Position numbers and translations under genes: made by a program | The notes under the pieces: generated by a model | What the model saw: only the letters and a program-made list of their open reading frames with translations | What the model was told of the DNA's origin: nothing | The model's database searches: none | Source: Caldilineae bacterium | Lineage (GTDB): Bacteria; Chloroflexota; Anaerolineae; J102 | Reading direction: 5' to 3' | DNA length: 10,995 bases | NCBI GenBank assembly: GCA_011192085.1 | Contig: DUEQ01000511.1 | Coordinates: 1 to 10,995, forward strand | Part shown: positions 6,839 through 10,009 of the stretch, in pieces | Numbering within the stretch: the stretch's first letter is position 1 | Layout of the letters: each line of letters begins with the position of its first letter

Positions 6839-6867
6839 TTGACAAGATGGTCGGGAGCGTGTAGGAT
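6839..6867 (+). promoter_or_regulatory. Sigma70-type promoter of the recombinase-like gene
   Basis: A perfect -35 TTGACA (6839-6844) and -10 TAGGAT (6862-6867, 4 of 6) are separated by 17 bp. The start would be near 6874, 55 nt before ATG 6929. A small inverted repeat, ATGCGC (6871-6876) / GCGCAT (6887-6892), covers the predicted start and could be an operator or 5' hairpin. The promoter rules out a translation start at the TTG at 6839. Confidence 0.7.
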
Positions 6868-6928
6868 GAGATGCGCCTTTGGCTATGCGCATGCCCTTCC
6901 TCCCTCATTCACCCGGCGAGGGTCCCCC

Positions 6929-7918
6929 ATGACTGCTCAAGACCTCTTCAGCCAGACCGACCAGCCCATCGACCCCGGCAAACCTCCCGCGCCCATGGGC
7001 GAACTGCCCCAGAATCTCACCGCCGAGAGCGCGATCACCGCGGCCCTGGGCCCTTATCGCATCTATCTGGAGCAGCAGGGCCGGGCGTTGAACACCATCA
7101 AGGCCTTTCTCGGGGATATCCGCATCCTGCAACGCTATTTCGCCGAGCGAGGCGAAAACCCGGCGGTGGGCGAGATCACCACCGACATGCTCAATGCGTT
7201 CTTGCACTGGCTGTGCCATGAACGCGAGAACAAACAGGGCGAGATCATGGGCTGCAAGCCCAAAACCTACACCCGCCGGGTGACCTCCCTCAAGTCCTTC
7301 TTCGGCTGGCTGTTCGAAACGGATGTCATCGCAGAAAACCCAGCGGCCGCGGTGGTGCAGCGCAGCGCCCGCGCGCCCCTGCCCCGCATCCTCACCGATG
7401 AGGAGATCGAGAAACTGCAAAACACCGCCCGCGACATGCTCTGGTCGCCCCGCAAACCGGACGCCCGGGCCTATCTCCTGCTGCTGGTGCTTCTCCAAAC
7501 AGGCATCAAGAAGAGCGAGCTCCTGCGGCTGGAGCTGTCCGATGTGGACCTCTCCAACCCCAGGGAGCCCACCATCCAGGTGCGCTATGGCGATTCCCGC
7601 TATGCGTACAAAGAGCGCAAGCTCTTCCTGGGGCCTGCGTTCACCCCGGTGTATAAGCAGTTCCTGCGGCAGTATCAGCCCAAGGAGCGGGTGTTCGAGT
7701 GGAGTCCCCGCAATCTAGAGTATGTACTCTCCGACCTGGCGGAGAAAGCGAGCGTGAACCCCAAACACATCTCCTTCGAGATCCTGCGCTGGACCTCCGC
7801 GGTGCGGGCCTATCGCTTCGGCATGCCCCCCGAGGCCATCCGCAAGAAGCTGGGGTTAAGCCCTATCGCCTGGCGAGAGACCTTCGAGAAGATTCAGAAG
7901 CTGGCCGCGCCGCGATGA
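6929..7918 (+). CDS. Tyrosine-recombinase-fold protein with degenerate active site (XerC/D-like pseudo-recombinase)
   Basis: 329 residues, with a proline-rich start, a SAM-like core-binding domain (about 33-135) and a phage-integrase-type catalytic fold (about 150-325). Aligned by eye to XerD, the active site is largely lost: Arg I of TGLRxSEL is K194 (TGIKKSELL), the HxxR His is E284 though R287 remains (EILRW), the LGH His is L310 (LGLS), and the nucleophilic Tyr is F319 (RETFEKI). A Lys in YKERK (around 228) may keep the beta-hairpin lysine. It should therefore bind DNA but not cut it covalently; a structural or regulatory DNA-binding role is inferred. There is no frameshift or stop, so it looks maintained rather than decaying. 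ATG 6929 is preceded by GAGGG 6 bases upstream, and the promoter lies just before. It stands alone between aspS and a convergent gene. Confidence 0.85.
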   Translation: MTAQDLFSQTDQPIDPGKPPAPMGELPQNLTAESAITAALGPYRIYLEQQGRALNTIKAFLGDIRILQRYFAERGENPAVGEITTDMLNAFLHWLCHERENKQGEIMGCKPKTYTRRVTSLKSFFGWLFETDVIAENPAAAVVQRSARAPLPRILTDEEIEKLQNTARDMLWSPRKPDARAYLLLLVLLQTGIKKSELLRLELSDVDLSNPREPTIQVRYGDSRYAYKERKLFLGPAFTPVYKQFLRQYQPKERVFEWSPRNLEYVLSDLAEKASVNPKHISFEILRWTSAVRAYRFGMPPEAIRKKLGLSPIAWRETFEKIQKLAAPR

Positions 7919-8002: not shown

Positions 8003-10009
8003 TTACGCCAGGACCCGTTGGGCCAGATGCACATACTCCGCCCGCACGCTCTGGCTGGGATCCAGGCCCAGCTCACGCAGGAGCTTGGAGATGAGATCGG
8101 CCTTGTGCTCCGCGTCGCTGGCCGACCAGGTGCGGGCCTTGATCTCCACGAAGTCGCCCATCCCCTGGGGTCGGGTGATGTGGTCCATGTTGATGGCGAA
8201 CTCCGCGTCCTCATACGTCACCCGATAGCGGGTGCGCCACTTCACCACCTCCACTTCCTCATCGGGGTTGAAGTATTCGCGATAGAAGCGCAGGGAATAG
8301 GTGGCCTGGGCGGTGTAGCGAGAGCGGGTGAGAATGATGGAATCTTGATACTCCCGCTCGACGATGCCCTCCATCAGCGTGAGGGTGTAGAAGGGCTTGA
8401 CGGTGAGCCCCGCGGGCCCGACGCCCGGCTCCTTCCCCACCAGCTCGTTGTCCTCCCGATAGCGCAGATAACGATTGTCGCGGCCGCCAAAGAGGAAATA
8501 GGTGTCGAACTGCTGCCGCACCGAGTGTTTGACCACGTCGAGGTGCAATTCCTGAAGCCGCTTCTCCACCCCTTGCAGGTCGTGGGTGCGCACCTTCACC
8601 TGCACCTCGAAGGTCTCCCGCTGTTCGAACCCGCCGATGGCGATGATCTTGATCAGCAGGCTGCCCTCCCGTTGGGACATGAAGTCGTTGATCTGTTGCG
8701 CTATCTCCCGGGCTCGGGCCTGCACCGCGGGCAGATCGATGGTCAGCAGCTCCCGATCTCGCACCAACTGCCTGCCATGCACCCACACATGGCGCACATC
8801 GCTGGCGTGAGCTGCATAGACCAGATGGCTGTAGACGTTGTTTGGGCTGAGATGGAAGCGGGGGGTGGCGTGGGGCGCGTCCTGATCCACGACCACGATA
8901 TCGGCATACTTGCCCGCCTCCAGGCTGCCGATGACGCCATCCAAATGCAGCGCCTTCGCGCCCTCGATGGTCATCATGGCGAAGACGTCGGGCGCGGGCA
9001 GCGCGGTGGGATCGCCTTTGACCGCTTTAGGGAGGAAAGAGGCTAGCCGGGCCTCCTCGAACATGTCCAGGTCGTTGTTGCTGGCCGGGCCGTCGGTGCC
9101 GATGCCCACGGGAATGCCCGCCTCGCGCATCTCGACCACGGGAGCGAAGCCCGAGGCCAGTTTCAGGTTCGATGAGGGATTATGGGCCACGCCCGCGTCC
9201 GTTCCAGCCAGGAGTTTGATCTCGTGGGGTTCAATGTGGACGCAATGGGCCGCGATGAGTTTGGCTTCGGTCAGGCCCAGGCGGTCCACATATTCGATGG
9301 GAGGCGCGCCGAAGTCCCGCTTGGCGTCGGTGACCTCCAGCGCGGTCTCCGAGAGATGGATGTGGATGGGCGCGTCCATCTCCAGGGCCAGATTCAGCAC
9401 ATCCCGAAGGATGTCGTCGGTGGTGGTGTAGGGTGCGTGAGGCGCGATGGCGGGCGTGATCAGCTCATGCCCCTGCCAGCGCTTGATGAAGCCCCGACAC
9501 AGATCGAGACTCTCCTCGTAAGAGGCCGCGTCGGGCGAGGGGAATTTGAGCACGGTCTGGCCCAGCACGGCCCGCATCCCCACATCCGCGGCGGCCCTGG
9601 CCACATCCTCTTCGTAATAGTACATGTCGTTGAAGGTGGTGACGCCGCTGAGGAGCATCTCCGCACAGCCCAGTCGCGTGCCCACGTCCACGAAATCAGG
9701 CCCCACGAACTCCCGCTCCACCGGCATCATATACCCCAGCAGCCACACATCCAGCCGCAGATCATCGGCCAGGCCCCGCAGCAGGGTCATAGGCACATGA
9801 GTGTGGGCGTTGACAAAGCCGGGAATGACCAGCTTGCCCGTGGCGTCCACCACGTTGTCGCTCTCCACAAGCTGCCGCACCCGGTCTTCGGGCCCGACGG
9901 CCACGATCTGATGGCCGCGAATGGCGACAGCTCCGGGCGAGAAGAGGTCCCGCCGGGCGTTCATGGTGACGACGGTTCCCCCGGTGATGAGGGTGTCGAC
10001 TTGGCGCAT
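8003..10009 (-). CDS. Fused MTA/SAH deaminase-type amidohydrolase and CYTH domain protein
   Basis: A single 668-residue frame. Residues 1 to about 440 form a TRZ/ATZ-MtaD amidohydrolase expected to deaminate 5'-methylthioadenosine or S-adenosylhomocysteine: metal His69 and His71 (NAHTH), H218 and E221 (HIHLSE), H255 (AAHCVH), D306 in GTDGPASNNDLDMFEE, and the closing beta-sandwich GKYADIVVVD and VWVHGRQLV. Residues about 460-668 form a CYTH (triphosphate tunnel) domain: FEVQVKVR (467-474) in place of ExExK, QFDTYF (500-505), YLRYR (514-518), KWRTRYRV (590-597), NMDHI and GDFVEIKAR (618-626). There is no stop or shift at the junction (about 8632-8690); M444 is an in-frame ATG but lacks a Shine-Dalgarno. 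AGGAG lies 6 bases before the start. CYTH enzymes act on triphosphate compounds; the joint role is unknown. Convergent with the recombinase-like gene and 203 bp from the upstream DsbA-like gene. Confidence 0.9.
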   Translation of the reverse strand: MRQVDTLITGGTVVTMNARRDLFSPGAVAIRGHQIVAVGPEDRVRQLVESDNVVDATGKLVIPGFVNAHTHVPMTLLRGLADDLRLDVWLLGYMMPVEREFVGPDFVDVGTRLGCAEMLLSGVTTFNDMYYYEEDVARAAADVGMRAVLGQTVLKFPSPDAASYEESLDLCRGFIKRWQGHELITPAIAPHAPYTTTDDILRDVLNLALEMDAPIHIHLSETALEVTDAKRDFGAPPIEYVDRLGLTEAKLIAAHCVHIEPHEIKLLAGTDAGVAHNPSSNLKLASGFAPVVEMREAGIPVGIGTDGPASNNDLDMFEEARLASFLPKAVKGDPTALPAPDVFAMMTIEGAKALHLDGVIGSLEAGKYADIVVVDQDAPHATPRFHLSPNNVYSHLVYAAHASDVRHVWVHGRQLVRDRELLTIDLPAVQARAREIAQQINDFMSQREGSLLIKIIAIGGFEQRETFEVQVKVRTHDLQGVEKRLQELHLDVVKHSVRQQFDTYFLFGGRDNRYLRYREDNELVGKEPGVGPAGLTVKPFYTLTLMEGIVEREYQDSIILTRSRYTAQATYSLRFYREYFNPDEEVEVVKWRTRYRVTYEDAEFAINMDHITRPQGMGDFVEIKARTWSASDAEHKADLISKLLRELGLDPSQSVRAEYVHLAQRVLA

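Follow-up and report, generated by a model that had tools for sequence, protein, structure and literature searches.

A widely distributed fusion of an MTA/SAH-deaminase-type amidohydrolase to a CYTH triphosphate-tunnel domain with altered metal-site residues in Chloroflexota

Several groups of described proteins stand closest to the gene product analyzed here. One comprises the structurally characterized MTA/SAH deaminases from Chromobacterium violaceum (4f0r/4f0s) and Pseudomonas aeruginosa (4dyk/4gbd, with 4gbd representing a structure with methylthio-coformycin), together with TM0936 (1p1m); these are chains of 404-458 residues without a CYTH domain. Another comprises proteins in which a CYTH domain is a module of a longer chain; the fusion partners listed for these in PMC8233210 are HD hydrolase, exopolyphosphatase, nucleotidyl kinase and CHAD, with no amidohydrolase among them. 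Among the latter group, plant TTM1 and TTM2 (7z67) join a CYTH domain that lacks the metal motifs to a uridine kinase, an enzyme of nucleoside metabolism (PMC8233210), and thus provide a precedent for the arrangement considered here, although the partner is a kinase in the plant proteins and a deaminase in our case. We found no paper on a fusion of CYTH with an amidohydrolase or deaminase in the open-access literature, in keeping with the first-pass annotation of this DNA, which knew of no described fusion; the architecture may already be on record in domain databases.

The window, i.e., the whole stretch of 10,995 nucleotides that we analyzed from a contig (DUEQ01000511.1) of a Caldilineae bacterium, carries the fusion gene at positions 8003..10009 of the (-) strand (668 codons; ATG at 10009, stop codon at 8005-8003), a strand that the first-pass annotation had left unstated. 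Pfam places Amidohydro_1 (PF01979) at residues 60-414 (E 6e-78) and CYTH (PF01928) at residues 484-655 (E 9e-4) of the 668-residue protein. Together with two-domain relatives, this confirms the single uninterrupted two-domain frame proposed in the first-pass annotation, and the sequence motifs quoted there are present. The CYTH profile match lies close to the cut-off: it reaches 24 bits when scored together with its neighbours in a genome search, but 19.5 bits alone in hmmscan against a cut-off of 23.2. A whole-chain predicted model (AF2; mean pLDDT 91.6, pTM 0.85), as the annotation had recommended, contains the eight-stranded tunnel fold in the CYTH half. Subdivided by Pfam and fold matches, the protein consists of the amidohydrolase domain (residues 1-440; 8690..10009, (-) strand), a linker that is partly helical in the AF2 model (residues 441-464; 8618..8689, (-) strand) in which E448 and K454 are invariant in 72 rows, and the CYTH/triphosphate-tunnel domain (residues 465-664; 8018..8617, (-) strand).

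Elsewhere in the window, Pfam shows nothing unusual. The remaining genes encode an NYN-domain protein, a Y-family DNA polymerase, a diacylglycerol-kinase family protein, a phosphoribosyl-AMP cyclohydrolase, a class II tRNA synthetase with a GAD domain, an XerC/D-like tyrosine recombinase (6839-7918, (+) strand) that adjoins the fusion gene and reaches none of the cut-offs of the ten NCBIfam models listed for it, and a DsbA-like thioredoxin protein (PF13462; 10213..10974, (-) strand) upstream of the fusion gene on the same strand. The latter scores 123.3 of the 190 bits set for the NCBIfam 'Rcas_1661 family thioredoxin-like (seleno)lipoprotein' and is thus under the cut-off. Across 80 loci, a DsbA-like gene lies upstream in 26 and VKOR in 20, and we saw no functional tie between either neighbour and the fusion in these 80 loci.

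The kinship of the N-terminal half with MTA/SAH deaminases, as originally annotated, is borne out by phmmer, Foldseek and the conserved catalytic residues. The best PDB matches in phmmer are 4f0r, 4dzh, 4dyk and 4gbd; Foldseek yields TMt values of 0.96-0.97 to 4f0r, 4dyk and 4gbd, with TM0936 (1p1m) ranking lower. Across the described deaminases, identity over the domain is 36-41% and TMt 0.94-0.97, the catalytic residues align, and the alignments stop between residues 435 and 440 of the window protein. Conservation was counted in an alignment of 99 distinct rows, leaving out as unreadable those rows without letters at a given site. The HxH metal motif (H69 and H71; 9797..9805, (-) strand) is present in 93/93 readable distinct rows, with 6 rows lacking letters there, and so is E98 of the PxE motif (9716..9718, (-) strand; 93/93), which occupies the position of the ribose-binding Glu in TM0936-type deaminases. 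H191, H218 to E221 (HLSE; 9347..9358), H255 (AAHCVH; 9245..9247) and D306 (GTDG; 9092..9094, all (-) strand) are each kept in 94/94 readable distinct rows. HxH, two further His, Asp and HxxE form the metal and catalytic set of MTA/SAH deaminases; this set is complete in the window protein and in every readable row and aligns with the solved deaminase structures. Judged from these residues and from its closest solved relatives, which are MTA/SAH/adenosine deaminases, the N-terminal domain is probably a metal-dependent deaminase of 5'-substituted adenosines, with 5'-methylthioadenosine, S-adenosylhomocysteine, 5'-deoxyadenosine or adenosine as predicted candidate substrates. We do not assign it to one of these compounds because, among the 25 NCBIfam models listed out of 73, no curated equivalog cut-off was reached (best NF006549, 487.7 of 540 bits).

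The deaminase-CYTH fusion is real, old and widely kept. The whole-protein query found a match of some kind in all 61 genomes searched (its own and 60 relatives), and two-domain matches were present in 6 of 8 same-genus relatives, in 10 of 11 further genomes of the same family and in many other families of the class; of the remaining two same-genus genomes, one has a copy cut by a contig end (G006) and the other (G002) a weaker amidohydrolase match only. In the search across genomes that the first-pass annotation had called for, a profile built from the CYTH part alone matched 243/396 genomes of the window's class, with frames examined for part of these matches, and 89/400 genomes of the phylum, 39 of the 89 lying outside the window's class. 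Among the 90 matches listed in the phylum search, 88 sit in open frames of at least 657 codons and the two short ones (G521, G376) sit at contig ends. Of the best 80 of 509 relatives in the named collection, 76 span both domains, although one of them (L037) lacks about its last 20 residues because its contig stops there, and the remaining 4 are truncated by contig ends; both domains also occur in 16 of 20 further loci, the other 4 being cut in the same way. The fused frame is continuous in many assemblies rather than split by a stop codon. One stop each was reported within the CYTH match of three genomes (G598, G666, G417); the G666 frame (L122) extends to residue 662 of the window protein, and this stop is therefore the end of the chain. 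Genome G134 has two CYTH-profile matches, whose frames measure 686 and 678 codons, and may hold the fusion twice.

A misassembly or frameshift that joined two adjacent genes might be suspected in a source assembly as fragmented as this one (581 contigs, completeness 76.5%), but the same fused frame recurs in many other assemblies, among them the complete Herpetosiphon aurantiacus DSM 785 genome (locus L082), and we therefore rule out an artefact, whose probability is negligible. A standalone form of the fusion-type CYTH domain was likewise considered, and found no support among the short frames followed up: those in G521, G374, G287 and G376 are all cut by contig ends; among the best 80 of 509 relatives a contig edge marks the start of L060, L083 and L103 and the end of L075; and match coordinates place the frame starts of G323, G232, G369 and G301 at the first bases of their contigs. 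Of these best 80 relatives, 79 are labelled as members of Chloroflexota groups. The exception, L103, is a Caldisericaceae MAG whose copy is truncated, with the CYTH part at the contig start; a misbinned contig or a transfer is possible there.

We built a maximum likelihood tree from the amidohydrolase domains of 32 fused rows (the window protein and every third fused protein of more than 640 residues) and 20 unfused ones. All fused rows fall on one side of one branch, with a support of 100/100 and in 100% of 200 bootstrap trees. A single fusion event followed by descent would be the simplest reading of this grouping, which by itself does not prove one origin. We infer that the fusion is spread over at least two Chloroflexota classes, taken as Anaerolineae and Chloroflexia; the assignment of relatives to the Chloroflexia relies in part on their place in the tree beside Herpetosiphon.

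Beyond the fusion itself, the striking feature is the strict loss, as a pair, of predicted metal-binding glutamates from the CYTH domain. The canonical ExExK motif reads ExQxK (8594..8608, (-) strand), with E468 and Q470 in 98/98 and K472 in 99/99 readable distinct rows, and the canonical ExE motif of strand 8 reads E622-x-K624 (8138..8146, (-) strand; 98/98 readable distinct rows), both mapped by hhalign. By comparison, ExExK and ExE are each present in 11/11 aligned standalone CYTH domains of the same phylum, a control set derived from 30 loci that gave 24 canonical CYTH pieces by pattern, of which 11 were aligned. ExExK occurs in 23 of the 24 pieces; the odd one (L152) is read as a wrong pattern match, its EREIK aligning with the others. 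The 'complete CYTH-like domain' of the first-pass annotation is consequently complete in fold but incomplete in its catalytic signature. On the phosphate-binding side, the RxR motif (R516 and R518; 8456..8464, (-) strand; hhalign) is kept in 99/99 distinct rows. Strand 5 carries R562 (98/99) and R564 (99/99; 8318..8326, (-) strand), the latter aligned by hhalign with a Glu of canonical CYTH domains, and strand 6 carries K590, R592 and R594 (8228..8242, (-) strand; 99/99 distinct rows); when aligned with 2een, K590 and R592 coincide with its KxR. The strand-4 Lys of canonical CYTH domains is missing (hhalign). The fusion CYTH thus departs from SaTTM (7ns9) and PH1819 (2een) in ExQxK, ExK, the extra strand-5 Arg, the lack of the strand-4 Lys and the joined deaminase. 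A PDB sequence search with the CYTH profile returned only three MutS matches (E 0.5-0.6), with plant TTM1/TTM2 absent from the matches, while a single CYTH sequence retrieved 2een at E 0.039.

A distant NCBIfam match to TIGR00318 could be taken to indicate a class IV adenylate cyclase or a thiamine triphosphatase joined to the deaminase, and the YxRxR of the window protein fits the W/YxRxR pattern of thiamine triphosphatases (PMC8233210). The aromatic residue of this pattern (YLRYR in the window) is variable in the family, the site being Arg in 60, Tyr in 15, Phe in 3 and Trp in 1 of 99 distinct rows. According to the motif rules in PMC8233210, class IV adenylate cyclases have HF ahead of ExExK, a small residue where RxR has its first Arg, and ExA. 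In the fusion no HF precedes the ExExK position (EQRETFEVQVK in the window), the first Arg of RxR is retained (R516, 99/99 distinct rows), and ExK, rather than ExA or ExE, is found in 98/98. Nor are both Glu of ExE and ExExK, as in thiamine triphosphatases, present in the ExK and ExQxK of the fusion, and the strand-8 ExK (98/98 readable distinct rows) departs from the signature of inorganic triphosphatases (TTM). The adenylate cyclase or standard two-metal triphosphatase activity that the annotation had put forward for assay is unlikely by these rules, and the cyclase or thiamine triphosphatase reading retains a very small chance of being correct.

The second Glu of ExE is required for catalytic metal 2 in triphosphatases (PMC8233210). 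It is nevertheless conceivable that the CYTH part remains an active hydrolase whose metal site has been modified, working with a single metal or with Lys substituting for metal 2. PPPi, PPi or an adenosine-bearing polyphosphate would then be cleaved, and the chain would handle the two products of one reaction, e.g., a nucleoside and tripolyphosphate. Strict conservation would fit this idea, with 28 CYTH residues, the RxR pair and a DTY sequence included, conserved at 99% or more; the DTY fits the published DxY pattern (PMC8233210), even though hhalign left its Asp unaligned. Moreover, plant TTM2, which lacks both ExExK and ExE, reportedly has pyrophosphatase activity in vitro (PMC8233210); degenerate motifs hence do not prove absent catalysis, and this counts against the sensor reading that we favour below. 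Set against an active enzyme are the replacement of one Glu each of ExExK and ExE in 98/98 readable distinct rows, the Arg at a further Glu position, the absent strand-4 Lys and the fact that we saw no obvious substitute carboxylates in the fusion CYTH. On balance we regard a working hydrolase as rather unlikely.

The tunnel itself seems to be maintained. At strand positions taken from the predicted model (strand 4 from residue 538), 17/52 inward positions but 2/51 outward ones are invariant at at least 99% (Fisher p 0.0002), a test that is partly circular in that known ligand residues set the inward side; mean identity inward versus outward is not striking, 32/256 parity flips being as high or higher. 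The 17 invariant inward positions include ten Lys/Arg and four Asp/Glu, and the ten basic residues suggest that the tunnel is kept for an anionic ligand. Read from sequence conservation, anion binding appears maintained and metal binding reduced. The same barrel serves in Mediator subunits such as Med18, where it is not known to have a catalytic role, and Med18 is among our structural matches; a CYTH part that has lost ligand binding and acts as a mere scaffold, dimerisation or stability module is, however, distinctly improbable, given that its invariant strand residues mostly point into the tunnel and include many basic ones.

We therefore favour, at a probability of about 45%, the reading that the CYTH barrel is a (poly)phosphate sensor that controls the fused deaminase without fast hydrolysis. 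A sensor without two-metal catalysis is suggested because ExQxK and ExK are found in 98/98 readable distinct rows, as against ExExK and ExE in 11/11 standalone domains, and the reading gains support from the conservation of the fusion as one tree group with the deaminase residues retained in all readable rows. The barrel would have kept its ring of phosphate-binding Lys/Arg while losing part of the two-metal carboxylates, with the invariant K624 taking the place of the second Glu for metal 2. Its ligand may be a molecule that carries a polyphosphate (ATP, PPPi, PPi or polyphosphate); binding would need little metal or none, and hydrolysis would not be fast. As a ligand, adenosine thiamine triphosphate is a speculation prompted by PMC8615392. 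Opening or closing of the tunnel might then pass through the linker and set the activity or the oligomeric state of the deaminase, and the ligand-gated control that the first-pass annotation had envisaged is in this respect plausible. Removal of SAM by-products would thereby be tied to energy or phosphate status.

The other suggestion of that annotation, a coupled adenosine/nucleotide pathway, found no support. We compared profiles in 44 chosen genomes, 30 with and 14 without a CYTH-profile match. S-adenosylhomocysteine hydrolase is over the cut-off in all 44 (30/30 and 14/14), MTA phosphorylase (MTAP) in 27/30 with and 11/14 without a CYTH match, and classical adenosine deaminase in 23/30 versus 6/14 (Fisher p 0.04 toward co-occurrence, relatedness ignored). 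Since these enzymes are co-present, the fusion stands in for none of them.

Gene neighbours in relatives touch on nucleoside or adenine-nucleotide chemistry, but none is general and the window has none of them. An MTAP-like gene lies downstream in 14/100 loci; 13 of these are convergent and at least 54% identical to the probe, nine of them within about 120 bases of the fusion end (L038, L043, L044, L047, L053, L054, L073, L084 and L107), while the remaining one (L105) is weak at 27% identity. We rejected a route from MTA to MTI via a neighbouring MTI phosphorylase: two neighbours score 306.1 and 296.8 as MTAP (TIGR01694, cut-off 274.85) versus 211.9 and 197.2 as MTI phosphorylase (cut-off 223). 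Being convergent, not operonic, and better scored as MTAP, this neighbour probably does not use the deaminated product as its substrate. A pyrimidine-nucleoside phosphorylase (PyNP) is found near the fusion in 8/100 loci and the dephospho-CoA kinase CoaE in 11/100. In ten of these 11 (L112-L117 and L120-L123), from two families (f71, f107) that do not belong to the window's class, CoaE follows 3' of the fusion in the same orientation; the gap is less than 30 bases in six, which suggests a fusion-CoaE operon there. Among the neighbours tested, Pfam confirmed three CoaE, two phosphorylases and one PyNP.

Collectively, this is a new combination of known parts with altered CYTH metal-site residues. 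It may even be, although this is less likely than not, an undescribed bacterial CYTH class, in which two metal-ligand Glu would be replaced by Gln and Lys and a metal-poor, strongly basic polyphosphate receptor would gate a nucleoside deaminase, giving an energy or phosphate switch on SAM by-product salvage that became fixed a single time and has persisted in at least two Chloroflexota classes. Because organisms in culture (Herpetosiphon) carry the fusion, these ideas are directly testable. If true, they would caution against annotating such chains as adenylate cyclases, and a bacterial triphosphate-tunnel domain would serve as a sensor, not as an enzyme, on a SAM/purine clean-up step.
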